Below are positions 1,066-60,283 of a stretch of 64,000 bases of DNA, in pieces (the first letter of the stretch is position 1; each line of letters begins with the position of its first letter). The notes under the pieces were generated by a model that worked only from the letters and a program-made list of their open reading frames with translations, searched no databases and was not told the DNA's origin. The stretch lies in the NCBI RefSeq assembly GCF_003031405.1, contig NZ_CP020469.1:682001-746000 (forward strand), written 5' to 3'. The position numbers and the translations under genes were made by a program. Source of the stretch: Halomonas sp. 'Soap Lake #6' (GTDB lineage: Bacteria > Pseudomonadota > Gammaproteobacteria > Pseudomonadales > Halomonadaceae).

Positions 1066-2664
1066 ATGCTTCGTCTTTTGTTTACTGCCTTTGCCCTGAA
1101 TTGTCTGCTTGTGGTGCCGTTGTGGTGGCGTTTTGGCGAGATAGGCTCACCACTCATTGCCTGGGAAGCGTGGGTAATCGCAGCCGCTATGCGGCTTATT
1201 CCGCCAAGTCTCCCACGTCGCTTGCTAACGGTGATGGTTATTTTATGGCTGTTATTGGTAACGGCTGCCAATCTTGGCGATGCTGCTACCCATGCGGCTT
1301 TTGGTCGATCGTTGAACCTCTATTTAGATCTGCCGCTGGTGCGCGCTGTTTACCACCTTCTGGTAGGTAATGTAGGCCAACTGGCAGCGGTTTTCCTGAT
1401 GCTATTAGCTGTTTTGTTGGCACTAGCCACTCTATGGGGCCTTGTGAAGTTGCTGTTACCGGCTGCGCATTTATCGTTAAGGAGCCCTCAAGGTAGTGTG
1501 GCGATACTGCTTCTTGGCACGGCAATGCTCTTCACTCTGCTTGAAGCGAATGGCAACCGGCTGGTACCTCAGTCAACGCTCCCTGCGGTGAACACCACGC
1601 GCTTTCAGTGGGAGCAGGTTGTGGCTACCCACTATGCGCGTCATGCGTTTAGTGAGCAGCTCGAAACCTCTCCCATTAGCGCAAAACCACTACCTGGCCT
1701 TGAAGGGCGTAATGTTCTTTTAACCTTTATCGAGTCTTACGGTATCTCGGCGATTGATAATCCCCGCTATAGCGGACAGATTTTGCCAACACTTATGGAG
1801 ATAGAGCATCGGCTGGCCGACCGTGACCTCCACGTTGTATCGGGGTTGCTGGAGGCGCCTATACGTGGTGGTCAGTCATGGCTGGCACATGCGACGGTGC
1901 TCAGCGGGCGATGGATTGATAACCAATTGTGGTATCGGCTAATGCTGGAGAGTGGTCATTCCACCCTGGTTGATGATTTTCGTTCGACGGGGCAGCGCAC
2001 GCTCAGTGTAATGCCCGCGATTACGTTGGCATGGCCTGAAGGGGAGGCCTATGGTTTTGATACAATAGCGGCTGCGAAGGATATTCCTTACGCAGGTCCG
2101 CCGCTGCACTGGGTGACTATGCCTGATCAATTTACCCTCGACTACACCCAGCGGCATCTTCTGAGGGAAAGCCCAGTATTCGCTCAGTTAGCACTCATTT
2201 CAAGCCATGCCCCTTGGACGCCTATTCTACCGGTATTGGAAAACTGGGCGATGATAGGGGATGGCCGCATTTTTGCACCTTGGGAGCATGCAGGCGACCC
2301 ACCAGAGGTTGTTTGGCGAGATATAGAGCGTATTCGTGACCATTACGCCTGGTCGGTAGACTACTCTGTAAAAGTTACTGGCCGCTGGGCCGAGAGGGTT
2401 GTGGATGATAATACGCTACTGATTATACTGGGTGACCATCAGGCTGCACCGTTGATTACCGGTGAAAATGCCAGTGCTGCGGTACCCGTACATATTATTA
2501 GTGGAGATCCGGCGCTATTAGCACCATTTCGTGCACGTGGTTTTATCGATGGCATGCTGCCAGTCTTGGAGAATACTGAGCGTGCTTCAAAAATGAGCCA
2601 GCTGCGCCACTGGTTACAGGAAGATTTTGGCCCTTCGGCCACACAAACAAGGATGGCACCATGA
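1066..2664 (+). CDS. Membrane alkaline-phosphatase-superfamily (sulfatase-like) protein
   Basis: A 532-residue inner-membrane protein. Four to five hydrophobic segments fill the first ~190 residues, followed by a periplasmic domain of the alkaline-phosphatase/sulfatase superfamily. Visible landmarks are NVLLTFIESYG (first metal-site strand), GGQSWLAHATVLSG (likely Ser/Thr nucleophile region) and LLIILGDHQAAP (distal Asp-His metal ligands). Relatives include phosphoglycerol and phosphoethanolamine transferases. I chose ATG 1066 because GAGGTG lies 6 bases upstream and the hydrophobic N-terminus begins at once; an in-frame ATG at 1009 has no good ribosome site. The gene is divergent from opgG and overlaps manC by 4 bases (ATGA). 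Decoration of periplasmic glucans or a surface polysaccharide is a reasonable inference from the neighbours, but the substrate is unknown. Confidence 0.72.
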   Translation: MLRLLFTAFALNCLLVVPLWWRFGEIGSPLIAWEAWVIAAAMRLIPPSLPRRLLTVMVILWLLLVTAANLGDAATHAAFGRSLNLYLDLPLVRAVYHLLVGNVGQLAAVFLMLLAVLLALATLWGLVKLLLPAAHLSLRSPQGSVAILLLGTAMLFTLLEANGNRLVPQSTLPAVNTTRFQWEQVVATHYARHAFSEQLETSPISAKPLPGLEGRNVLLTFIESYGISAIDNPRYSGQILPTLMEIEHRLADRDLHVVSGLLEAPIRGGQSWLAHATVLSGRWIDNQLWYRLMLESGHSTLVDDFRSTGQRTLSVMPAITLAWPEGEAYGFDTIAAAKDIPYAGPPLHWVTMPDQFTLDYTQRHLLRESPVFAQLALISSHAPWTPILPVLENWAMIGDGRIFAPWEHAGDPPEVVWRDIERIRDHYAWSVDYSVKVTGRWAERVVDDNTLLIILGDHQAAPLITGENASAAVPVHIISGDPALLAPFRARGFIDGMLPVLENTERASKMSQLRHWLQEDFGPSATQTRMAP

Positions 2665-4070
2665 TCCAGCCGGTTATCCTCAGCGGTGGAAGTGGTACAC
2701 GGCTATGGCCGCTCTCCCGGGAGCAGATGCCCAAACAGTTTTTGCGCTTAACCTCCTCGCAGAGCTTACTACAGCAAACATTGGCCCGTTTGGAAGGCTT
2801 GGAGTCGTTACCGCCTATTTTGATGGGGCACCATGCCCACCGTTTTTTAATGGCAGAGCAACTTCGGGAAAGCGGCTATGCAGGCTCGCTTGTGCTTGAG
2901 CCTGAAGGGCGCAATACCGCTCCAGCGATTGCCTGTGCTGCGCTAATCGCACGCCAAGCGGGAGATGATCCGCTACTTCTAGTACTTCCTGCTGATCATG
3001 TTATTGGAGATCTTAACGCCTTTTATAGCAGTGTTCGCACTGCAGTCCCCCTTGCAGAGGCAGGTTATCTGGTCACCTTTGGGGTTGTGCCTAGCTACCC
3101 GGAAACAGGCTATGGCTATATCGCCTGCGGTAGCCTGTTAGGCGGAGGGCACCATATAGCAGCGTTTATTGAGAAACCTTGTGTTGAGCATGCGCGAGAG
3201 ATGCTAGAGGCAGGCAATACCTTGTGGAATAGCGGTATGTTTTTACTGCGGGCTTCCAGCTATCTTGAACAGCTGGAGGTATTGCAACCAGCTATGTTGA
3301 GTGCCTGTGAGGCGGCTGTTCTGCAATCTCATCGTGATTTGGATTTTTTACGGTTGGGCGAAGAGGCCTTTCTCAGCTGTTCAAGTGAATCGATTGATTA
3401 CGCTGTAATGGAGCACTGCGAACATGCGGCGGTTGTGCCATTAGATGCACAGTGGAGCGATATTGGCAGTTTTGATGCGCTGTGGGCGACCCTGCCCACC
3501 GATGCAGCTGGCAACGTTGTACAGGGGGACGGTGTACTACGTGATACTCACCGCTCCTTAGTGATAGCCGAGTACCGTTTAGTGGCTACCCTTGGCGTGG
3601 AAGATTTAGTGGTGGTTGAAACCCCTGACAGCGTACTGGTCGCACACCGTGATTATGCCCAGCAGGTAAAACACCTAGTGGCAACACTGTCAGAAGCTGG
3701 CCGTGGTGAGGTTAATACGGCGGCACAGGTACATCGTCCATGGGGCAGCTTCCAAGCCATGGATAGTGGTGAGCGCTATCAGGTAAAGCATATCACTGTG
3801 AAACCCGGCGGGCGGCTGTCACTACAGCGCCATCACCATCGAGCCGAGCACTGGGTAGTAGTGAGCGGCACTGCACAAGTCACCATCAATGAGCGCACCT
3901 TCTTGGTCAGTGAGAACCAGTCCACTTATATTCCCATTGGCGTGCCGCATCGCTTAGAAAACCTCGGAAAGATTCCCTTGGAACTGATCGAAGTGCAGTC
4001 GGGTAGCTATTTAGGGGAGGATGACATCGAGCGCCTGGACGACGTATATGCCCGACACAGTGATGAGTAG
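2661..4070 (+). CDS. manC: Mannose-1-phosphate guanylyltransferase / mannose-6-phosphate isomerase
   Basis: A bifunctional cytosolic enzyme (ManC/AlgA/XanB type, 469 aa, normal length) that makes mannose-6-phosphate from fructose-6-phosphate and GDP-mannose from mannose-1-phosphate and GTP. Residues 9-20 carry the nucleotidyltransferase signature GGSGTRLWPLSR, followed by PKQFL. NTAPAIACAAL, FIEKP and LWNSGMFL are further sugar-nucleotidyltransferase motifs. The last ~120 residues form a cupin isomerase domain with RPWGSF, a histidine-rich metal site (QRHHHRAEHWVVVSG) and YIPIGVPHRLEN. Its start overlaps the stop of the upstream sulfatase-like gene, so the two are probably co-translated. GDP-mannose feeds exopolysaccharide or LPS synthesis. 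No phosphomannomutase gene is adjacent. algA would be an equally valid symbol. Confidence 0.93.
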   Translation: MIQPVILSGGSGTRLWPLSREQMPKQFLRLTSSQSLLQQTLARLEGLESLPPILMGHHAHRFLMAEQLRESGYAGSLVLEPEGRNTAPAIACAALIARQAGDDPLLLVLPADHVIGDLNAFYSSVRTAVPLAEAGYLVTFGVVPSYPETGYGYIACGSLLGGGHHIAAFIEKPCVEHAREMLEAGNTLWNSGMFLLRASSYLEQLEVLQPAMLSACEAAVLQSHRDLDFLRLGEEAFLSCSSESIDYAVMEHCEHAAVVPLDAQWSDIGSFDALWATLPTDAAGNVVQGDGVLRDTHRSLVIAEYRLVATLGVEDLVVVETPDSVLVAHRDYAQQVKHLVATLSEAGRGEVNTAAQVHRPWGSFQAMDSGERYQVKHITVKPGGRLSLQRHHHRAEHWVVVSGTAQVTINERTFLVSENQSTYIPIGVPHRLENLGKIPLELIEVQSGSYLGEDDIERLDDVYARHSDE

Positions 4071-4157
4071 GGTGGAATAAACCACCCTATTCTCTACCGC
4101 TATTTATGTTTTTTTCTTGTACTACTCATGCTTTTTCGCGTGTTATTTCACCAGGGG

Positions 4158-4277
4158 CTAACTCATCAAGTACTAACTCATTAAGTACTAACTCATCAAG
4201 TGCTAGCTCATCAAGTGCTAGCTCATCAAGTGCTAGCTCATCAAGTGCTAGCTCATCAAGTACTAGTTCACCAGATG
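4158..4277. repeat. 15-bp tandem array, eight units
   Basis: Eight head-to-tail 15-bp units start at 4158, 4173, 4188, 4203, 4218, 4233, 4248 and 4263. The central units read CTAGCTCATCAAGTG exactly; the first three read CTAACTCAT(C/T)AAGT(A/G); the last is degenerate. The array lies between manC and a convergent small membrane protein gene, outside any plausible ORF. Some units contain in-frame stops. Related arrays occur at four other intergenic sites in this window. Confidence 0.93.
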
Positions 4278-4320
4278 GCACCTAATCACGGGTGCTATCA
4301 AAGCCAGTTGTAAGGGCTAG

Positions 4321-4671
4321 CTACCAGAGCCAGCTACCAGGGCGAGCTGGTGGTTCACCTTTGCGTACGGCTAGCCAGCCAAGAATGCAGCGTACACCCA
4401 GCCAGACTACCAAAAGCGGCCACAGCAAGGTGCCTACTAACATCAGGCTAAGGGTGAATGTGACAATAAAGTAGAGACTGCCAATCCAGAAGGTGCGAAT
4501 TAGATAGCGGTAGTGGGGCTGTAGCCAAGGGGCGGCTTCTTTGCGGTAGACATAGGCGATGATAATGCCAATCAGCATGGTGATATTGGCGGTAACCAAG
4601 CCAGCTAAGTAGAGTGCATAAATAATTTGCGGCGGTCGAGTATCCTCTTTAGGGATATAGCGCTGGGTCAT
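4321..4671 (-). CDS. Small DUF4870-like membrane protein
   Basis: A 116-residue protein with three hydrophobic segments, about residues 20-42, 55-75 and 72-95. A central block AYVYRKEAAPWLQPHYRY is followed by RTFWIGSLYF. It is a clear paralogue of the 145-residue protein at 5629-6066, which shares IIAYVYR, HYRY and RTFWIG and a matching tail ending in SWL(W/L). The layout resembles the DUF4870 family of small inner-membrane proteins, but I cannot confirm the family. It is the last of three minus-strand genes (5629-6066, lpxL-type, this one) and starts 18 bases after the acyltransferase stop. No function is known. Confidence 0.72.
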   Translation of the reverse strand: MTQRYIPKEDTRPPQIIYALYLAGLVTANITMLIGIIIAYVYRKEAAPWLQPHYRYLIRTFWIGSLYFIVTFTLSLMLVGTLLWPLLVVWLGVRCILGWLAVRKGEPPARPGSWLW

Positions 4672-20713: not shown

Positions 20714-20851
20714 AGTGAATCTCCTGTTAATAGCGTTAATGCTGCATGGCTTTTGTGTGTGACTGGAAAGTGCTGCTTTAATTTAGTGCAGCTTTATTTT
20801 GTGCGCAAGTTAAATGGTCAGAGAGTCTCCGCAGAAACAGCCTGCCACGAA

Positions 20852-25230: not shown

Positions 25231-25327
25231 CGTCGTTCATTAGGCTAAAGGATGGGATAGGCGGAGGGCCTTACTATTCGCTATGGTATGGCCCCTGCAT
25301 ATTCAACATTACAAGGCAGTGACGCCA

Positions 25328-26323
25328 TTGAAGAAAAAACGCCCGACATTACAAGATATTGCTGACCGAGTTGATGCAACTAAAATGACGGTCAGCCGCT
25401 GTTTGAGAGATCCTGATACAGTCTCGGAGGGTCTTCGTGAACGTATTTTTACTGTCGCTGAACAGCTTGGCTACATACCTAATCGGGCGCCTGACCTGCT
25501 TTCCCGTGCCACCAGTCACTCTATCGGGGTGTTGGTGCCGTCGCTGACCAACCAAGTATTTGCCGATGTGATTGTCGGCATTGAAGCGTATACCGAGCCT
25601 GCAGGATATCATTTGATGCTCTCTCACTATGGCTATAGCCAGGAGTTGGAAGAGCGCAGCCTAGCGTCGTTGCTCTCTTATAACGTGGATGGCGTCATCC
25701 TTTCAGACCGCGACCACACACCACGTAGTCTGCGTATGCTAGAAACAGCGGGCATTCCTATTGTTGAGATTATGGATACCCATCGCCCCCCCTTGGAGCA
25801 GGCGGTTGGCTACGATAACGTGCAGGCCGCCTACGATATGGTTAGCGAGATGATTCGCCGTGGCAGGCGCCAGGTGATTTATCTCGCCGTGCGCCTGGAT
25901 GAGCGTACACGCCAGCGTGAACAGGGCTATCGCCAGGCGATGGAGGAGCATGGTTTACTACCGGTAACGCTGCAAAGCAGTCAACGATCTTCTTACAGCG
26001 TTGGTGCGGCACTGATGCAGGAAATTCAGCAGCACTACCCCGCTACTGATGGCATTTTTTGCACCAACGATGACGTTGCAGTTGGGGCTTACTTTGAATG
26101 TTTACGCCACGGCATAAACGTGCCTGAAAAAATGGCGATTGCAGGGTTTCACGGCCACGATGTAGGGCAGGCGATGGCGCCACGCCTCGCCAGTGTGATT
26201 ACCCCTCGACAAGCCATCGGAGAGGCAGCCGCTAAAGCGTTGTTGTCACGTATCCGTGGCGAAGCACTTGAACAGCCGGTGATAGACTTGGGCTATCATA
26301 TCGAGGTGGGTAAAACGCTTTAG
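25328..26323 (+). CDS. gntR: Gluconate repressor GntR (LacI family)
   Basis: A LacI-type repressor, very close to E. coli GntR. The helix-turn-helix lies in KKKRPTLQDIADRVDATKMTVSRCLRDP. The hinge follows as YIPNRAPDLLSRATS, and the effector domain shows GVLVPSLTNQVFADVIVGIE, HTPRSLRMLETAGIPIVEIMD and FCTNDDVAVGA, then AIAGFHGHD. Starting at TTG 25328 gives 331 residues, the same length and opening as E. coli GntR. An upstream in-frame ATG at 25283 would add 15 residues before the HTH and has no close ribosome site. It likely binds the palindrome at 21438 and autoregulates through the operon. Confidence 0.92.
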   Translation: MKKKRPTLQDIADRVDATKMTVSRCLRDPDTVSEGLRERIFTVAEQLGYIPNRAPDLLSRATSHSIGVLVPSLTNQVFADVIVGIEAYTEPAGYHLMLSHYGYSQELEERSLASLLSYNVDGVILSDRDHTPRSLRMLETAGIPIVEIMDTHRPPLEQAVGYDNVQAAYDMVSEMIRRGRRQVIYLAVRLDERTRQREQGYRQAMEEHGLLPVTLQSSQRSSYSVGAALMQEIQQHYPATDGIFCTNDDVAVGAYFECLRHGINVPEKMAIAGFHGHDVGQAMAPRLASVITPRQAIGEAAAKALLSRIRGEALEQPVIDLGYHIEVGKTL

Positions 26324-26373: not shown

Positions 26374-26446
26374 AAAGCAGCTCATTAAAAAACACTCATC
26401 AAAAAGCAACTCATTAAAAAGCAATTCATTAAAAGCAGTTCATTAA
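26374..26446. repeat. 14-15-bp tandem array, five units
   Basis: Units begin at 26374, 26389, 26403, 26418 and 26433. They follow AAAGCA(G/A)(C/T)TCATTAA, with one 14-base variant (AAAACACTCATCAA). The last unit and its flank form a hairpin, GCAGTTC (26435-26441) with GAACTGC (26449-26455). The array lies between gntR and the MOSC gene. Confidence 0.88.
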
Positions 26447-26476
26447 AAGAACTGCAGTACAAAGCATGAGGCCGCC

Positions 26477-27325
26477 GTGAAAATTACCCAACTCATTGTC
26501 TATCCGGTTAAATCACTGAAGGGAATTAGCGTCACCCAAAGTGACATCCACGCTCATGGATTGGCATGGGATCGCCGTTGGATGCTGGTTGATGCTCAGC
26601 AGCGCTTTGTCACCCAGCGCCAGTTGCCTGAACTTGCCACCATTGCAGTTGAATTAACGGATCAAGCGTTAGTGCTATCGCATCCTAATGTTGACCCGAT
26701 AGCGATTCCTTTGGAGGAGCCTCAAGGTAATCTCCGTCTCGTAAAAGTGTGGGCAGACCACTGTAAAGCATTGCCAGAAAGTGAGGAAGTATCGCGTTGG
26801 CTTGTGGCTGCATTGGGTGAGCAGGTGCAAGGAATCAGCTTAGTGCGCTTTGCCACCGAGTTTCCCCGGGCGGTTGAGGAGGTTTTTCTCGCAGGAGGAG
26901 AGGCGCATACTTATTTTTCTGATGGTTATCCCTTCCTGATAACTACCACCGGTTCGTTGGCTGCCTTAAATCAAGCCCTTGTCGCTGGAGGGCATTCACC
27001 CATCCCCATGAACCGCTTCCGGCCCAATATCGTGCTGGAGTGTGATGATGCCTGGGCGGAAAATCGCTGGAAAACCCTGATAGCATACCAAGGCGGTTAT
27101 GAACTGACGTTACGCAAGCCCTGCCAGCGTTGCAAAATCACCACGGTTGATCAGCAGACGGCAGAGATTCCCGCACCAGGGGAGCCGCTGAAAACATTGC
27201 TCGCATTAAATACCCAGCCCCATTTGAAAGGAGCACACTTTGGCCAGAATGCTACGTTAACCTCTGGACAAGGCGGCACTATTCGCGTGGGGGATGAGGT
27301 GGTGTCAACGTCCCGTGAGGCTTAA
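26477..27325 (+). CDS. MOSC-domain protein (YcbX-like, short form)
   Basis: A 282-residue protein with an N-terminal MOSC beta-barrel domain (ITQLIVYPVKSLKGI, GLAWDRRWMLVD, FVTQRQLPELATI) and a C-terminal MOSC domain. The latter shows FSDGYPFLITTTGSLAALN, MNRFRPNIVLE, and the conserved cysteine region LRKPCQRCKITTVD. Relatives bind molybdenum cofactor through the MOSC Cys and reduce N-hydroxylated compounds (YcbX/mARC). The E. coli protein has an extra ferredoxin domain, absent here, so an external electron donor would be needed. GTG start. The 3' end overlaps the convergent EamA gene by 47 bases. Confidence 0.88.
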   Translation: MKITQLIVYPVKSLKGISVTQSDIHAHGLAWDRRWMLVDAQQRFVTQRQLPELATIAVELTDQALVLSHPNVDPIAIPLEEPQGNLRLVKVWADHCKALPESEEVSRWLVAALGEQVQGISLVRFATEFPRAVEEVFLAGGEAHTYFSDGYPFLITTTGSLAALNQALVAGGHSPIPMNRFRPNIVLECDDAWAENRWKTLIAYQGGYELTLRKPCQRCKITTVDQQTAEIPAPGEPLKTLLALNTQPHLKGAHFGQNATLTSGQGGTIRVGDEVVSTSREA

Positions 27326-29206: not shown

Positions 29207-29635
29207 TTAGTTACGCTCATACTCTTCTGCTTCTTCAAGGGCATCTTGCGAGGCATTAACTCGGATAACGTAGTCATCACCATCTTCGTCTTTAGTGAGT
29301 TCAAGGGAATCCCACTCGATGGCAACGTCTTTTTCACCCATGCCGAGGAATCCGCCGACACCAACCACTACCGCTTGAATTTGTCCATCTTCATCGATAA
29401 TTAGGTTAGAGATGGTGCCGATGTCTTCATCATCTTCTACCGAGCTTTTGACCTGATTGCCGGTCAAAGAGTCAGCGTAGAAGCTACCTTCTGGCTGAGA
29501 GGTTAAGTATGTTGCTTCCATTGGCGTGGTGTTTTCAGCCGCTGCGGTCTGTTCCTCAGCATTCACAGCCGTTGCTGCAAACATGAATGCCGGTACCATT
29601 AAAGTGCCTAGAAAAGCCGGTTTGATCATTTTCAT
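29207..29635 (-). CDS. Exported PRC-barrel domain protein
   Basis: A 142-residue protein with a signal peptide over residues 1-26 (KMIKPAFLGTLMVPAFMFAATA, then VNA-EE). A PRC-barrel-like domain follows: ADSLTGNQVKSSVEDDEDIGTISNLIIDEDGQIQAVVVGVGGFLGMGEKDVAIEWDSLEL. The mature protein is very acidic, as is common for exported proteins of halophiles. Exported single PRC-barrel proteins are frequent in alpha- and gammaproteobacteria and are linked with envelope stress, but a role is not established. ATG 29635 has GGAGC upstream; longer starts to 29869 read into non-coding sequence. Confidence 0.82.
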   Translation of the reverse strand: MKMIKPAFLGTLMVPAFMFAATAVNAEEQTAAAENTTPMEATYLTSQPEGSFYADSLTGNQVKSSVEDDEDIGTISNLIIDEDGQIQAVVVGVGGFLGMGEKDVAIEWDSLELTKDEDGDDYVIRVNASQDALEEAEEYERN

Positions 29636-29939
29636 TGCTCTTGCTCCTTGCGCTTGTATTAAGACATACGAATCTACGTAAATGTCTAAACAAATTAATA
29701 ACGATAACCAGTGGGCGGTGGTATCAACTCTTCCTTGAGTACCTTCTTCGCTTTTCCATATTGCGCTGGCTAGATCGTTATTACTCCTGGTTTCTGTGCA
29801 TAGTAGCCATATGGCTAACTCATTGGGCGAAACTACATGATGGGTAGTAAGCCCTGCCCTGCGCTTCACTGCGCCGAGACACTTATCAAGGTAGACGCTG
29901 TGTTTTATTTTGCAAAGATTATTACAAGGTTTTTGTGTT

Positions 29940-29997
29940 GATAGTAAGTACGAGTTAGTAAGTGCGAGTTAGTAAGTATGAGTTAGTAAGTGCGAGT
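29940..29997. repeat. 14-bp tandem array, about four units
   Basis: Full units GAGTTAGTAAGTGC (29952), GAGTTAGTAAGTAT (29966) and GAGTTAGTAAGTGC (29980), with a partial unit before (29940-29951) and a partial one after. The reverse complement reads ACTCATACTTACTA and so resembles the array at 4158. Confidence 0.88.
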
Positions 29998-30176: not shown

Positions 30177-31136
30177 ATGACGAAAATTACGCGATACCAG
30201 CCTTTCCAGCGCATCAAGCAGCTATGTGTCACCAGCATTGCGTTAGGTGCTTGGCTCCTTGCGAGCACTACTGTGGCTAATGATGATAGCTCACCCAAAG
30301 GCCATTTTACTCTGCCGGAAGAGGGCAATATGGTCGGCCAAGTGTATACGGTGACCGCTGGCAATGAAGATACTCTGCTTGATATTGCTAGGGCGCATAA
30401 TGTTGGCTACGAAGAAATACGTATGGCGAACCCCGATGTAAGCATCTGGGTACCCGGCGAAGGCACGGAAGTCACTATTCCCGGTCAGTTCATCTTACCT
30501 GATGAGCCACGTACCGGTATTGTGATTAACGTGGCAGAGTTGCGGCTCTATTACTACCCAGAAGTGAGCAATGGCGAGGCGCCTAGGGTAGAAACCTATC
30601 CTATTGGGATTGGCAGTGATGCTTACAATACACCGTTAGGCATTACCAAAACCACTATGCGCCTTGAAAATCCGGCGTGGTATCCACCGGCTTCTATCCG
30701 ACGTGAAGCCGCCGAACGAGGCGATCCACCGCCTGCGGTTGTGCCGCCAGGTCCAGATAACCCACTAGGTCAGTACGCTATTTTGTTGGACATACCAGGG
30801 TATTTGATTCATGGCACAAATCAGCCAGACGGTATTGGTATGCGTGCTAGCCGCGGCTGTATCCGTATGCATTCTGAAGATATCGAATCAGTATTTTGGC
30901 GTGTGCCGGTGGGAACGCAGGTCAACATTATCGACGCGCCCATAAAGGTAGGCTGGGGGACAAGTGGCGATGCTTATGTGCAGGCTTTTACGGCCACCGA
31001 TGAGAAAGCATTTGGTATGGAAACACTGTTAAATGTCGTCAGCTTGCTTGAGGAGCATAAGGAGGAAGGCGTCGACTATGAGCAGGTGCGCAACGTACTA
31101 GAGGAGGCCAATGGTCAGATTGTGCCGCTAAGTTGA
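30177..31136 (+). CDS. L,D-transpeptidase with LysM-like domain (ErfK/YbiS type)
   Basis: A 319-residue exported enzyme that cross-links or anchors peptidoglycan through meso-diaminopimelate residues. A signal peptide spans roughly residues 1-35 (SIALGAWLLASTTVA-ND). A LysM-like module follows (YTVTAGNEDTLLDIARAHNVGYEEIRMANPDV). The YkuD catalytic domain starts at TGIVINVAELRLYYYPE, and the active site is LIHGTNQPDGIG then MRASRGCIRMHSEDIE, with the nucleophilic Cys in SRGCIRM and the His in HGT. About 70 C-terminal residues lie beyond the catalytic domain. Good AAGGAG site, single gene, convergent with the response regulator. Confidence 0.93.
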   Translation: MTKITRYQPFQRIKQLCVTSIALGAWLLASTTVANDDSSPKGHFTLPEEGNMVGQVYTVTAGNEDTLLDIARAHNVGYEEIRMANPDVSIWVPGEGTEVTIPGQFILPDEPRTGIVINVAELRLYYYPEVSNGEAPRVETYPIGIGSDAYNTPLGITKTTMRLENPAWYPPASIRREAAERGDPPPAVVPPGPDNPLGQYAILLDIPGYLIHGTNQPDGIGMRASRGCIRMHSEDIESVFWRVPVGTQVNIIDAPIKVGWGTSGDAYVQAFTATDEKAFGMETLLNVVSLLEEHKEEGVDYEQVRNVLEEANGQIVPLS

Positions 31137-43647: not shown

Positions 43648-45135
43648 ATGACCCAGCTTAATAACCACAATGTGGGCAACCTCAGCGCGGCGATCGAAAC
43701 ACCCCGTTATGATCGGCAGGCCGTCACAGCGGGTATCGTACATATTGGAGTAGGAGGCTTTCATCGCGCGCACCAAGCAATGTATCTGGATGCGCTGATG
43801 AATCAGGGCGAAGCGCTTGAATGGGGTATTGTTGGTGTCGGTGTAATGCCCAGCGATAAACGCATGCAGCAGGTGCTTATTGCTCAAGATTGCCTTTACA
43901 CACTGATCGTAAAGCACCCCAATGGTGATTATCAGCCCAGGGTTATCGGCAGCATTGTCGATTATCTGTTTGCTCCGGATGACTGCGATGCTGTTATCGA
44001 AAGAATGGCGGACCCGTCTATTAAGATCGTTTCGCTCACTGTGACCGAGGGCGGTTATAACGTTCATCCCGTGACGGGGGAGTTCAATCTAGCTGACCCG
44101 CAGGTACAAGGGGATCTTGCACATCCAGATACTCCTTCAACAAGTTTTGGGTTAGTGGTTGAAGCATTGGTACGTCGCCGCTCACGAGGTATTGCCCCTT
44201 TCACGGTAATGTCCTGCGATAATATTCAGGGCAATGGCGATGTCGCCAAGCAGATGTTTAGCGGCTACGCTCATGCTCGCAGTCCTGCGCTGGGCAAATG
44301 GCTAAGCGACAACGTGGCCTTCCCCAATGCCATGGTTGACCGGATTACACCGGTTACGTCGGCTGTCGATATTGAAGAACTTGCGCAGCGATTTGGTCTT
44401 CGTGATGACTGGCCAGTGGTCTGTGAACCATTTACCCAGTGGGTGGTGGAAGACCATTTCCCTTTAGGTCGTCCCGCGTTAGAAAAGGTAGGCGTGCAAC
44501 TGGTTGACGATGTTGAACCTTATGAGTTGATGAAGTTACGGCTATTGAATGCCAGTCATCAAGCGCTGACGTATTTTGGCTACCTAGTCGGCTATCGCTA
44601 TGCCCATGAGGTATGCCAAGACCCACTATTTGTAGAGTTTTTGCTGGGGTACATGCGCGAAGAGGGGACACCAACCTTGGCACCTGTTCCGGGAGTCGAC
44701 TTGGAAACGTATCGGCTTACCTTGATTGAACGTTTTGCTAACCCGCAAATTAAAGACACCTTGGCAAGACTGTGTGCCGAAAGTTCGGATCGTATCCCCA
44801 AGTGGCTGTTGCCCGTGATTCGTCAACAGCTGGCTCGAGGAGGGGAGGTTGAACGCAGTGCTGCTGTCGTGGCCAGTTGGGCGCGCTATGCCGAAGGTGT
44901 CGATGAACAGGGGGAAACCATTGAAATTGTTGATCGCTTGCGTGACTCGCTGATAGCGATTGCCGCGGAGAATCGAGCTCGCCCTGCTGCGTTTATAGAG
45001 AATCGCGAGCTATTTGGCGATTTGGCCGACCAGCCACGCTTTTTAAATGCTTATCTCTCTGCATTAAGATCTCTGCACGAACATGGCGCACGCGCTACCC
45101 TTGAAACTCTGGTCGCGTCTAAAGGAACGGTGTGA
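43648..45135 (+). CDS. mtlD: Mannitol dehydrogenase family protein (MtlD/mannitol 2-dehydrogenase)
   Basis: A 495-residue long-chain polyol dehydrogenase (zinc-independent), oxidising D-mannitol to fructose or D-arabitol to D-xylulose. The nucleotide site is VHIGVGGFHRAHQAMYLDALMNQG (residues ~30-55), VGVMPSDKRMQQVL follows, and the catalytic region has VDRITPVT with KLRLLNASHQALTYFGYLVGY, where the Lys and His lie. ATG 43648 has GGAG 7 bases upstream; ATG 43645 and TTG 43642 are alternatives. Its stop overlaps the xylulokinase start. Confidence 0.92.
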   Translation: MTQLNNHNVGNLSAAIETPRYDRQAVTAGIVHIGVGGFHRAHQAMYLDALMNQGEALEWGIVGVGVMPSDKRMQQVLIAQDCLYTLIVKHPNGDYQPRVIGSIVDYLFAPDDCDAVIERMADPSIKIVSLTVTEGGYNVHPVTGEFNLADPQVQGDLAHPDTPSTSFGLVVEALVRRRSRGIAPFTVMSCDNIQGNGDVAKQMFSGYAHARSPALGKWLSDNVAFPNAMVDRITPVTSAVDIEELAQRFGLRDDWPVVCEPFTQWVVEDHFPLGRPALEKVGVQLVDDVEPYELMKLRLLNASHQALTYFGYLVGYRYAHEVCQDPLFVEFLLGYMREEGTPTLAPVPGVDLETYRLTLIERFANPQIKDTLARLCAESSDRIPKWLLPVIRQQLARGGEVERSAAVVASWARYAEGVDEQGETIEIVDRLRDSLIAIAAENRARPAAFIENRELFGDLADQPRFLNAYLSALRSLHEHGARATLETLVASKGTV

Positions 45136-46625
45136 TGTATATCGGGGTAGATTGCGGTACTCAGAGTACCAAAGTGGTGGTGGTTGACGTGGAGCGCGGC
45201 ACTATTCTTGGCGACGCCAGCTACCCGCATCATTTGGATGAGGCTGAAAATGGTCGACGGGAACAAGCGCCTGCCGAATGGCTGGTAGCGCTAAAAGGTG
45301 CTTTCTCCCAAGCTATCGAGCGAGCGGGTATCGACGCGAAGCAGGTGCGTGGTATCGGCGTGTCTGGCCAGCAACACGGTATGGTGGCGCTGGATGCACA
45401 TGGTGACCCGGTCTACCCTGCCAAGTTGTGGTGCGATACCGAAACCAGCGCACACAATAGTGACTTGGTGGCACGCCTAGGCGGAGAGGCTGGCTGTTTA
45501 GAAAAACTGGGTCTTGTGCTGCAAACTGGCTATACCGCTTCCAAAGTAGCTTGGCTTAGAGAGCACCACCCTAATGCTTATCAGTGCATCGCTACGCTGC
45601 TGCTGCCCCATGACTATCTCAATTTCTGGCTGACGGGTGAGCGAGTCACCGAGGCGGGAGATGCCTCCGGCACGGGCTATTTCGATACGCGACAAAGATG
45701 CTGGCAGCGCGAGGTGTTCGCTGAAATTGCCCCTGAACTAGACCCAGACAGAGTGCTGCCTAGGCTGCTTGAAGCCCATGAACCGGCCGGTCTGGTGCGC
45801 CCGTTAGTTGCCCAGGAACTTGGGCTAGGTGAAGGCGTAGTGGTGTCCTCCGGTGGTGGCGACAATATGATGGGGGCGATTGGTACCGGTAATATCATTC
45901 GTGGGCTTGTTACGTTGAGCTTGGGAACCTCAGGCACCGTATGTGCTTACTCAGCCAAGCCTGTAGTGTGTGATAGCGCCATGGTGGCCAATTTTTGTGC
46001 TAGCCATGGAGGTTGGTTGCCGCTTATTTGCACCATGAACGTGACGTCGGCCACCAGCCGAGTACGCGACCTGTTTGGGTTGGATTTGGCAGAATTTGGT
46101 AAGCAGGTGGCGAAAGCACCGATTGGTTCTGAAGGTGTAACAGTGTTGCCGTTTTTTAATGGCGAGCGCGTGCCGATGCTGCCCAATGCCAAGGGTGATT
46201 TTCTTGGTTTGTCCAGCCTTAATATGACCCAGGCAAACCTTTGCCGCGGAGTGATGGAAGGTGCCACCTTTGGCCTGCGTTACGGCCTGGAGTTATTAGG
46301 TGATTTAACCGCGGGGGCAAGCCAAATCCGACTGATTGGCGGCGGGGCTAAAAGTGCAGTATGGCGGCAAATGGTGGCGGATATTACCAATACTCAGGTG
46401 ATTTGCCCAAACATTACCGATGCCGCCGCCTTAGGTGCTGCGATTCAGGCAGCTTGGTGTGATTTGAACACGCAAGGTGTCACGCTTGAGTTGCTTTGTT
46501 CCCGCTTGGTTCATCTGGACACAGCATCCCTAACTGACCCTAAGGCTGAGCGTGTTACTGCCTATCAGGCGGTTTATCAGCGCTATCGCGAGGCTCTGGC
46601 TCAGCGTCATAGTATTCAGTTATAG
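45135..46625 (+). CDS. xylB: Xylulokinase
   Basis: A 496-residue FGGY sugar kinase, phosphorylating D-xylulose to xylulose-5-phosphate. The N-terminal phosphate loop is GVDCGTQSTKVVVVD, VRGIGVSGQQHGMVALDAHG is the substrate motif, PHDYLNFWLTGERVTEAGDASGTGYFD follows, and the C-terminal FGGY signature is GGGAKSAVWRQMVADITN near residue 400. TGATG overlap at 45133-45137 with mtlD; AAGGA upstream. A GTG at 45132 is also in frame. Matches mtlY of Pseudomonas mannitol/arabitol operons and points to arabitol (via xylulose) as one substrate. Last gene of the operon. Confidence 0.93.
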   Translation: MYIGVDCGTQSTKVVVVDVERGTILGDASYPHHLDEAENGRREQAPAEWLVALKGAFSQAIERAGIDAKQVRGIGVSGQQHGMVALDAHGDPVYPAKLWCDTETSAHNSDLVARLGGEAGCLEKLGLVLQTGYTASKVAWLREHHPNAYQCIATLLLPHDYLNFWLTGERVTEAGDASGTGYFDTRQRCWQREVFAEIAPELDPDRVLPRLLEAHEPAGLVRPLVAQELGLGEGVVVSSGGGDNMMGAIGTGNIIRGLVTLSLGTSGTVCAYSAKPVVCDSAMVANFCASHGGWLPLICTMNVTSATSRVRDLFGLDLAEFGKQVAKAPIGSEGVTVLPFFNGERVPMLPNAKGDFLGLSSLNMTQANLCRGVMEGATFGLRYGLELLGDLTAGASQIRLIGGGAKSAVWRQMVADITNTQVICPNITDAAALGAAIQAAWCDLNTQGVTLELLCSRLVHLDTASLTDPKAERVTAYQAVYQRYREALAQRHSIQL

Positions 46626-46675
46626 ACAGTATCCAATTAGAGACAGTGCTCAGTAATAGATAGCACTCAGTAATA
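46625..46675. repeat. 17-bp tandem array, three units, at the xylB stop
   Basis: Units start at 46625 (GACAGTATCCAATTAGA), 46642 (GACAGTGCTCAGTAATA) and 46659 (GATAGCACTCAGTAATA); the first overlaps the last base of the stop codon. The core CTCAGTAA is one base from CTCATTAA of the array at 26374. Confidence 0.82.
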
Positions 46676-58669: not shown

Positions 58670-58699
58670 CAGCCTGCCATGTTACAGCATGGCAGGCTG
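58670..58699. terminator. Shared hairpin between katA and dusA
   Basis: Perfect 12-bp stem CAGCCTGCCATG (58670-58681) with CATGGCAGGCTG (58688-58699), loop of 6. The dusA stop codon lies in the loop. No T-run on either strand, but the symmetrical hairpin between convergent genes could serve both. Confidence 0.6.
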
Positions 58700-59716
58700 C
58701 GCCGGCTCAGGCTGTTCGGATGTAAGTGGCTCACGTACTAAGCTGAGCGCCTCGTCATACACACGCAAACCCACACCCTCTTTATGGGCATTTTCAGAAA
58801 GGTGGCGGCGAAAGCGCCTGCCGCCTGAGCAGCCCTGAAATAGGCCAAGCAGATGGCGGGTAATGTGATTTAGTTTGGCACCTTCTTCTAGACGTTGTTG
58901 AATGTAGGGGCGAAACGCCATTGCCGCCTCAAGGCGCGTCTGTGCTGGCCCTGGTTCACCAAATAGCTGCTCATCGACCCCGGCAAGCAGCCACGGGTTT
59001 TGATATGCCTCTCGTCCTACCATGACGCTATCCACGTGTTGCAGCTGTGCTTGGCACTCGGAGAGGGTTTTAATACCACCGTTGATGCCGATATGTAGCT
59101 CAGGATGGCTCTGCTTTAGGCGGTGAACGCGGGGGTAGTTAAGCGGTGGCACGTCACGGTTTTGTTTAGGCGACAAACCCTGCAGCCAAGCCTTGCGCGC
59201 GTGCACAGTAAACACCTGGCATCCAGCATCCGCGACGATATTGATAAAGCGCGCCAGATCAGCATCTTCATCCTGGTCATCAATACCAATACGGCACTTC
59301 ACCGTGATCGGAATCGACACGGTCGCCTGCATGGCGCGTACAGCATCCGCCACTTTTTCAGGGTGGCCCATTAAGCAGGCACCAATCATATTGTTCTGTA
59401 CGCGGTCGCTGGGGCAGCCAACGTTCAGGTTAACTTCATCATAGCCCCATGCCTCGGCAATCGCCGCGCACTCCGCAAGCTCTCCCGCATCGCTACCGCC
59501 CAGTTGCAAAGCAATAGGGTGCTCAACCTCGCTGTAGCCCAAAAAGCGCTCACGGGGTGATCCATGCAGAATCGCACCGGTCGTCACCATCTCAGTATAC
59601 AGCAGCGCCCGCTTGGTTAACGTGCGGGCGAACGCACGATAGTCGCGGGTTGTCCAATCCATCATGGGTGCCACAGAAAATAGGCGGGCTGTGTCTGCTG
59701 ATTTTTCTTTCTTCAT
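58682..59716 (-). CDS. dusA: tRNA-dihydrouridine(20/20a) synthase DusA
   Basis: A 344-residue FMN-dependent enzyme that reduces U20/U20a of tRNA. VAPMMDWTTRDYRAFARTL begins the barrel, VNLNVGCPSDRVQNNMIGACLMGHPEK holds the catalytic Cys in the DusA-specific context, then VKCRIGIDDQDEDADLARFINIVADAGC and VFTVHARKAWLQGLSPKQNRDVPPLNYPRVHRLK, all characteristic of DusA rather than DusB or DusC. NGGIKTLSECQAQLQHVDSVMVGREAYQNPWL is the flavin-phosphate region. ATG 59716 begins just before the fold; the in-frame ATG at 59818 adds 34 unrelated residues. Confidence 0.95.
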   Translation of the reverse strand: MKKEKSADTARLFSVAPMMDWTTRDYRAFARTLTKRALLYTEMVTTGAILHGSPRERFLGYSEVEHPIALQLGGSDAGELAECAAIAEAWGYDEVNLNVGCPSDRVQNNMIGACLMGHPEKVADAVRAMQATVSIPITVKCRIGIDDQDEDADLARFINIVADAGCQVFTVHARKAWLQGLSPKQNRDVPPLNYPRVHRLKQSHPELHIGINGGIKTLSECQAQLQHVDSVMVGREAYQNPWLLAGVDEQLFGEPGPAQTRLEAAMAFRPYIQQRLEEGAKLNHITRHLLGLFQGCSGGRRFRRHLSENAHKEGVGLRVYDEALSLVREPLTSEQPEPAQPAML

Positions 59717-60283
59717 ATCAACCACTTGCACACTGAGTGTGCGGTAATAATTATACCAATCCGTTGCCCTCTGATAGCGCCTATTCGCTAAGCTCATCGA
59801 AATACTATGGGCTAGCATAATGACCTGTCAGAAGTGGTGGGCTCGAATTGTACGCAAGAATGGGTAGGCAGTCATTATGCCCTATTGTCCATGGACAGGG
59901 GCGAGTGGAGTGCTTTCTGGGAATAAAAGCTATGTTACTAAAAGCTATGTTGCTAAAAGCGACGTTACTAAGGGGTATTCGCGAAGTGGTGTTAATCGTA
60001 ATTTTTGGCTAGTTTTAATTAAGGTCGTGATGCCGAGAGCTGGACAGGTGTTAATTGATGCAATATTCCTAAGTTTAATGAGCTGTGCTGCCTGGGTAAT
60101 ACTTGATTAGAGCCCTGTTGTGGGGGCGATAAGTCGCTGATATGTAGGCTGCGTATGGTATTTGCCGCCAAAATAATCCTTTTGTAAGAAAGCCTTGCAG
60201 CGCTTTGCATGTTTTGCGGTCTAAATCGCTGTGGTTAGTGCTATGCGGTGGTAAGCTTGAGTTTCGCTGTTTGAGGAGTCTCT
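59717..60283. other. Gap between dusA and lipoprotein gene
   Basis: About 567 bases. It holds a 12-bp palindrome TGTCCATGGACA (59886-59897) and the 15-bp array at 59925-59969. A 77-codon ORF across the array is judged spurious. Promoters for the divergent dusA and lipoprotein genes must lie here. Confidence 0.5.
59925..59969. repeat. 15-bp tandem array, three units
   Basis: AAAAGCTATGTTACT (59925), AAAAGCTATGTTGCT (59940) and AAAAGCGACGTTACT (59955). The join TTACTAAAAGC resembles TTCATTAAAAGC of the array at 26374. Confidence 0.88.

Follow-up and report, generated by a model that had tools for sequence, protein, structure and literature searches.

Bacterial VNTR or minisatellite loci are short tandem arrays whose copy number varies between strains or species. 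In yeast, Stantial et al. reportedly described in 2020 de novo duplications made by topoisomerase II, which are said to be short, to form at a staggered cut and to be joined by NHEJ. In bacteria, the topA R168C mutator of E. coli is described as generating de novo, head-to-tail and repeat-independent tandem duplications of 2-19 bp in galK, with topoisomerase I being implicated; in the authors' account the hotspots matched no known TopA motif, and the mechanism of de novo repeat formation is called unknown (Bachar et al., PMC6954433). A further system is represented by the Borgs, extrachromosomal archaeal elements whose tandem repeats are portrayed as locus-unique, young, fast-turning, in many cases intergenic, frame-keeping within genes and biased in base composition, with a strong A bias, flanking partial repeats and near-perfect units of, for example, 18, 20, 21 and 36 nt; the mechanism is left open by the authors (Schoelmerich et al., PMC9879509).

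The tandem arrays of Halomonas sp. 'Soap Lake #6' analysed here share with the E. coli mutator the de novo, head-to-tail and repeat-independent character of the duplications, whose 12-18 bp fall within the range observed in galK, with single cases of 20-22 bp exceeding it. R168C is a laboratory mutant, whereas here a natural lineage with an intact R168 is concerned, the lengths are narrower and the duplication boundaries carry a mark, a C at position -4. The likeness to Borg repeats extends to locus-unique, young and fast-turning units, to their frequent intergenic location, to frame-keeping in genes and to a biased composition. The arrays reside, however, on a bacterial chromosome, are AT-rich, and show no flanking partial repeats at the clean two-copy stage. 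The yeast duplications differ in relying on a type II enzyme and on NHEJ, whereas no Ku was found here, and ordinary VNTR loci contrast with hundreds of locus-unique arrays that have a single unit length and the same mark at their boundaries. A literature search based on titles and abstract openings, in which few subscription papers were covered, returned no report of such arrays in Halomonas or Vreelandella.

Tandem arrays in the gaps between genes

The window, that is, the whole 64-kb stretch of DNA that was analysed, corresponds to bases 682001-746000 of a genome consisting of a single contig of 4,803,686 bases. All five of the arrays that the original prediction had placed in intergenic gaps of unlinked genes were confirmed, one of them overlapping a stop codon; none is assigned to a strand. 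The first, detected by TRF at 4157..4270 (period 15, 7.6 copies), lies between two convergent genes, coding for a ManC-type mannose-1-phosphate guanylyltransferase (2661-4070, plus strand) and for a DUF4870-like protein (4321-4671, minus strand), the latter with a domain match below the Pfam cut-off. The second, also found by TRF (26374..26448, period 14-15, 5.1 copies), separates a LacI-family regulator gene (25283-26323) from a MOSC-domain gene (26477-27325), both on the plus strand, while the third (29942..29997, period 14, 4.0 copies by TRF) is flanked by divergent PRC-barrel (29207-29869, minus strand) and YkuD (30177-31136, plus strand) genes. The fourth is a degenerate array of period 17 and about 3 copies at 46611..46675, of which TRF reports 46611-46647 with 2.2 copies and the eye follows the remainder to about 46675; it overlaps the stop codon of an FGGY kinase gene (45132-46625, plus strand). 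The fifth (59924..59971, period 15, 3.2 copies) is located upstream of a dihydrouridine synthase gene (58682-59818, minus strand). In addition, the window harbors a sixth, weak and old array at 20769..20804 (period 16, 2.3 copies), which is not a recent duplication because both of its halves are present in seven relatives too. At other places of this gap, young arrays occur in other species.

Some further features of these gaps can be mentioned. A block of sequence at about 20760-20810, TTTTAATTTAGTGCAGCTTTATTTTGTGCGCAAGT, is kept in all eight aligned species amid turnover of the gap and looks like a putative regulatory element. On the minus strand, the array at 4157 is open in one frame over 52 codons (4126-4281) and misled the gene caller; this frame is probably not a gene. 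A terminator-like stem on the minus strand overlaps the end of the 26374 array, one being found against 0.4 expected in shuffles. As for structured RNA, the window contains two tRNAs and nothing else at the gathering threshold.

To place the window in its chromosome, every third 20-kb stretch (80 of 240, one of which overlaps the window) was sampled in addition to the window, and genes were called by a simple hexamer method, which places starts only approximately and may overlook short genes. The 960 gaps of this sample (234.6 kb) contain 128 arrays with a TRF score of at least 50 and a period of 10-24, as opposed to 1, 0, 1, 1 and 1 in five dinucleotide shuffles. An excess beyond chance and a genome-wide minisatellite class, both of which had been suggested from the window, are thereby upheld for the sampled third. 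The periods of gap arrays peak at 13-17 bp, and arrays inside genes have a period that is a multiple of three in 44 cases out of 54. With a coarser gene mask (open frames of at least 100 codons), 87 arrays of period 11-18 are counted in 162.7 kb of gap of the 80 stretches, i.e. 0.535 per kb. By this measure the window is ordinary for its genome, since five of its gaps contain such arrays where the genome density predicts 3.5 arrays; the 46611 array is outside these five counted gaps because the gene mask cuts it. Density reaches 0.95 per kb in convergent gaps, compared to 0.47 and 0.48 elsewhere, the latter value being that of divergent gaps. Arrays of two other kinds were encountered in the sample. 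One gap (L071:12068-12573, G000:C1:3732068-3732573) contains several arrays of GC-richer 21-22 bp units of the type TCACCGCACTGTCATTCCCGAG, unlike the 13-17 bp class, and three gap stretches within L083:4948-12350 (G000:C1:4444948-4452350) are occupied by long CRISPR-like arrays, whose period is 66-67 bp.

The idea that the unit cores of the five arrays are related did not withstand comparison with shuffled units. Specifically, the five units have a mean best pairwise identity of 0.528, whereas shuffling them gives 0.536 (sd 0.021) and drawing five other genome units at random gives 0.545 (sd 0.027). One dispersed repeat family is rejected, the five units being as alike as their own shuffles. 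Among 60 sampled genome units the corresponding value is 0.552 versus 0.536 for shuffles, with 6 of 1770 pairs at an identity of at least 0.8 versus 2 in the shuffles, and a weak word bias is perceptible in the genome units, TACTA/TAGTA being the top word (16 of 134 units, 3.0 expected). The units are AT-rich (38% GC, compared to 47% for gaps). A role as stem-loop spacers, also put forward initially, is not supported either, since palindromes are no commoner in the units of 36 clean duplications than in controls (mean stem 2.8 versus 3.1). The arrays are alike in unit length, in AT-richness and in the boundary signature of the duplication, and hence in mutational origin, not in sequence.

Turnover among related species

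The closest named relative, identified by its MOSC protein (94% identity), is Vreelandella nigrificans, whose DNA is 91.3% identical over 237 kb of alignment, a difference of about 9%. Orthologous gaps were found for 177 of 956, and 170 of them were used. Copy numbers, which the original prediction had proposed to compare between strains, were compared with this sister species, and all five window arrays differ. The 4157 array is missing there together with a 159-bp stretch of the orthologous gap. By eye, the 26374 array has 5 copies here and 1 in V. nigrificans, the 29942 array 4 copies and about 1 degenerate copy, and the 46611 array about 3 and about 10, respectively; at 59924, V. nigrificans has one 15-bp unit fewer. 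Four of the five are therefore larger here or absent there, and one is larger there. Moreover, the 26374 array is absent in all six alignable relatives of the seven tried, V. nigrificans having one copy of the unit. A comparable turnover is seen in the gap at 20714, where V. zhaodongensis and V. alkaliantarctica have one copy of a 14-15 bp unit, the latter with a different triplicate nearby, while V. andesensis, V. alkaliphila and V. venusta have it in repeated form.

The events that separate the two sister species can also be observed individually. V. nigrificans carries a clean 14-bp duplication of a sequence that is single in our genome, which in turn has clean duplications of 18 bp (shifted by the aligner) and 21 bp, each single in V. 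nigrificans. Across the 170 gaps, 144 clean indels have a bimodal length distribution, with 103 of 1-3 bp, 11 of 4-11 bp and 17 of 12-18 bp; longer ones amount to 12 of 19-60 bp and one of 159 bp. Six of the 17 indels of 12-18 bp are at least 80% identical to an adjoining copy, the rest being diverged, aligner-shifted or not duplications.

Within arrays, the average difference between copies is 10.4%, compared to 3.9% between the species in gaps; therefore, many arrays either predate the separation of the species or have a higher rate of evolution. Among lineage-specific copies, some differ at about two bases in 14-15, beyond the divergence of the species in gaps (L022:1553-1704, L028:18375-18624 and the orthologous V. 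nigrificans gaps), and error-prone copying or faster local evolution may be at their origin. A difference between copies made of transitions only is ruled out, the transition/transversion ratio being 2.3 in arrays and 3.1 between species in gaps. Neither an absence of mismatch repair nor an unusual substitution spectrum could be upheld, given the same ratios and a MutS_V domain found in the genome. Taken as a class, the arrays are real, genome-wide and mostly young.

Beyond this pair of species, arrays of period 11-18 reach 0.582 per kb of gap in V. nigrificans (25 in 42.9 kb). Among the Vreelandella loci, density falls from 0.69 per kb below 53% GC (23 in 33.2 kb, 14 loci) to 0.25 per kb at 53-56% GC (8 in 31.5 kb, 14 loci) and 0.11 per kb above 56% GC (3 in 26.6 kb, 17 loci), high-GC and low-GC loci differing with p 0.0004. 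Nine other Halomonadaceae genera yielded 4 arrays in 30.5 kb of gap, in two genera with 2 each (p 0.0007 against the density of our genome). No array of period 11-18 was found in 2.2 kb of gap of one genome from another family of the order, nor was any found in 16.6 kb of gap from 200 kb of E. coli K-12, where 8.9 would be expected at our density (p 0.00014). The GC content of gaps varies between these groups, yet the E. coli gaps, at 44% GC, have no arrays. Low-GC Vreelandella share the array excess, which is weak in high-GC Vreelandella and in other Halomonadaceae; this gradient is an indication, since a single genomic neighbourhood supplied all 45 genus loci and each of the other genera was sampled over 40 kb.

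Length, breakpoints and edges of the founding duplications

The founding event is best observed in duplications that have not expanded. Exact tandem duplications with a period of 7-22 in the gaps of the genome concentrate at 12-17 bp (37 of 60), and none of period 23-60 was found in these gaps. In detail, 66 are counted at period 6 and 14 at period 7, followed by 1, 1, 2 and 2 at periods 8-11, by 5, 4, 12, 8, 4 and 4 at periods 12-17 and by one each at 18, 19 and 22. In genes, exact duplications of at least 10 bp have periods of 12, 15 and 18 only (11, 7 and 3 cases), and multiples of three account for 7 of 11 clean coding duplications collected with the coarser mask and more genomes. By type of gap, fresh exact duplications of our genome number 6 in tandem, 4 in convergent and 4 in divergent gaps.

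Pooling our genome, V. nigrificans and the 45 genus loci gave 97 distinct exact duplications of period 8-40, of which 83 are at period 11-20; the 36 of these without a third copy form the clean set. In 29 of the 36, between 0 and 3 additional bases match at the breakpoints (17:9:2:1), in line with the expectation for random breakpoints (0.55, 0.28, 0.11, 0.04). The remaining seven have 7-13 extra matching bases and look like further partial copies. It follows that most founding events need no microhomology, and we are confident that the first copy arises homology-free. Likewise, a homology-free, length-limited duplication as the origin of the arrays is well supported, and we consider it very probable.

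The edges of the duplications were read on the top strand at the left and on the bottom strand at the right, i.e. as two presumed nicks leaving a 5′ overhang of the unit. In a first pass over 37 duplications (exact or with one mismatch, 0-1 extra base), C occupied position -4 at 29 of 74 edges and G at 6, and positions +1 to +3 were T-rich; the overall p was 0.005 and that of the largest single cell a borderline 0.055, in a pass that handled edges with one ambiguous base loosely. For the signature as a whole, the data that revealed it are for the most part also those on which it was tested. Later tests weighted ambiguous edges. In this way, C at -4 had p 0.005 in 24 gap duplications, and 11 coding duplications, which partially overlap with the earlier sets, gave p 0.028 for C at -4 and p 0.01 for T at +1 to +3.

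The controls of the final test were GC-matched in-silico duplications, drawn from whole sequences for the 11 coding ones. Against these, the 35 exact duplications have C at -4 at 28.7 of 70 nicks versus 17.3 (look-elsewhere p 0.036), and 50 duplications, consisting of the 35 exact and 15 with one mismatch, at 40.5 of 100 nicks versus 23.7 (look-elsewhere p 0.001). Among the 50, C exceeds G most strongly at -4, to a degree that none of 1000 controls reaches. Taken alone, the 15 one-mismatch duplications have 11.8 of 30 versus 6.4 (p 0.004), with T at +3 as their largest cell (look-elsewhere p 0.10). The final test left out eight one-mismatch duplications with a short edge; all 23 together give 15.3 of 46 versus 10.4, with C being broadly enriched from -8 to -4. 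The excess exists only in the 5′-overhang geometry, as the opposite geometry gives 16.2 of 70 against about 16.4 expected. Both nicks carry the C in 8 of the 35 exact duplications (2.2 expected). T at -1 is found at 25.8 of 70 nicks versus 18.7, C at -4 and T at -1 together at 14.7 of 70 versus 5.0, and A at +1 is without enrichment.

Candidate agents and consequences of the duplications

The boundary mark recalls the cleavage properties of bacterial topoisomerase I, for which a preference for C at -4 of the cut and for AT-rich sites is described, with type IA enzymes remaining linked to the 5′ end of the cut (PMC7587558, PMC9352719). E. coli TopA favours TA at the cut. Compared over E. coli positions 7-394, the TopA of our genome keeps the arginines of the C-4 pocket, R169 and R173, so that the residues for C-4 recognition are present, together with the catalytic Y319 and the acidic residues D111, D113 and E115; Y177 is replaced by F, as in six relatives. 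R35 and R168 are intact, and therefore the known E. coli mutator changes are absent. With the C agreeing in geometry, strand and position, topoisomerase I is the leading single candidate, and we rate the chance that it is the duplication agent, an enzyme deduced from its mark, at about even. Extra type IA topoisomerase genes are probably not the cause, our genome having 2 in a range of 2-4 among 31 genomes of the genus. V. nigrificans has two more such genes (open frames of 674 and 664 aa, contigs C16 and C25) beside the usual two.

The proposed mechanism would begin with a stretch of about 12-18 bp, usually AT-rich, duplicated head to tail without pre-existing repeats, a step that has statistical support. 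As the boundary signature suggests, topoisomerase I (TopA, type IA) would cut opposite strands at sites with C at -4 and T-rich 3′ of the cut, leaving 5′ overhangs of the unit and staying linked to the 5′ ends. The recessed 3′ ends might then be filled in and the enzyme-linked 5′ ends rejoined to them, giving two units in a row by a route that would require neither Ku nor microhomology. From two copies, slippage or recombination expands and shrinks arrays to 3-10 copies. The duplications would survive mainly where they are harmless, i.e. in gaps, and within genes for the most part where they leave the reading frame intact. E. coli TopA is reported to be richer in divergent than in convergent intergenic regions (PMC9352719), and the bias of the arrays towards convergent gaps therefore argues against a simple map of TopA activity; these gaps may be favoured as having the least to lose. 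Other points against TopA as the agent are its intact R168, the missing enrichment of A at +1, the E. coli hotspots without a TopA motif, and those lineage-specific arrays whose copies differ more than the species do.

The same length, the same geometry and the same absence of microhomology would be expected from another staggered cutter, such as a nuclease, or a transposase leaving a target duplication of 12-18 bp after precise excision, followed by fill-in and joining, and the signature itself gives a cut preference and names no enzyme. Direct repeats of 13-18 bp, however, show no evident peak at element-like distances up to 9 kb in the stretches of our genome and of V. nigrificans, their counts falling smoothly with some scatter. 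Moreover, the genome search found neither Ku nor an ATP-dependent ligase (the PF01068 ligase is present in 2 of 31 genus genomes), while the C at -4 agrees with topoisomerase I and calls for no additional assumption, so that we regard a different cutter as unlikely. Ku-dependent end joining is not supported, the search of the genome having found no Ku; in the family, Ku occurs in 10 of 81 genomes, and in none of the seven of this genus among them.

Replication slippage or template switching between short direct repeats, followed by normal minisatellite turnover, is surely used in the later expansion from two copies, and as the founding event it would agree with the AT-richness of the arrays and with the seven clean duplications having long extra matches. 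The random-breakpoint pattern of the other 29 is difficult to reconcile with it, and neither the narrow length of 12-17 bp nor a strand-specific C at -4 would be expected; slippage as founder thus appears distinctly improbable. Least credible is that selection maintains the arrays as DNA-binding sites or regulatory spacers, a reading to which we attach hardly any weight. The weak word bias and the higher density in convergent gaps speak in its favour, while the units are locus-specific and as dissimilar as shuffles, are placed nearly at random relative to starts and stops and are not conserved between close species. For the same reasons, the binding-site role initially suggested for the arrays is not sustained.

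We return, then, to topoisomerase I. That the arrays stem from a lineage-wide mutational process of staggered topoisomerase I cuts, fill-in, rejoining and later expansion is, in our judgement, a balanced proposition, equally open to acceptance and to doubt. Slightly more tentative is the general form of the proposal, namely that a type IA topoisomerase generates minisatellites in nature: TopA might cut melted AT-rich DNA at sites about 15 bp from each other, and fill-in and self-resealing without Ku or microhomology could have left hundreds of locus-specific arrays with a C-4 scar outside both edges.

A natural lineage that steadily makes first tandem copies, narrow in length and bearing a cut signature specific to the strand, renders the question of their origin testable by genome comparison and mutation accumulation. 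If the proposal is true, the C-4 scar would be usable to seek topoisomerase-made duplications elsewhere, and these arrays would show the birth of new DNA repeats in nature. For halophilic bacteria, this would represent a source of rapid change in the regions between genes.
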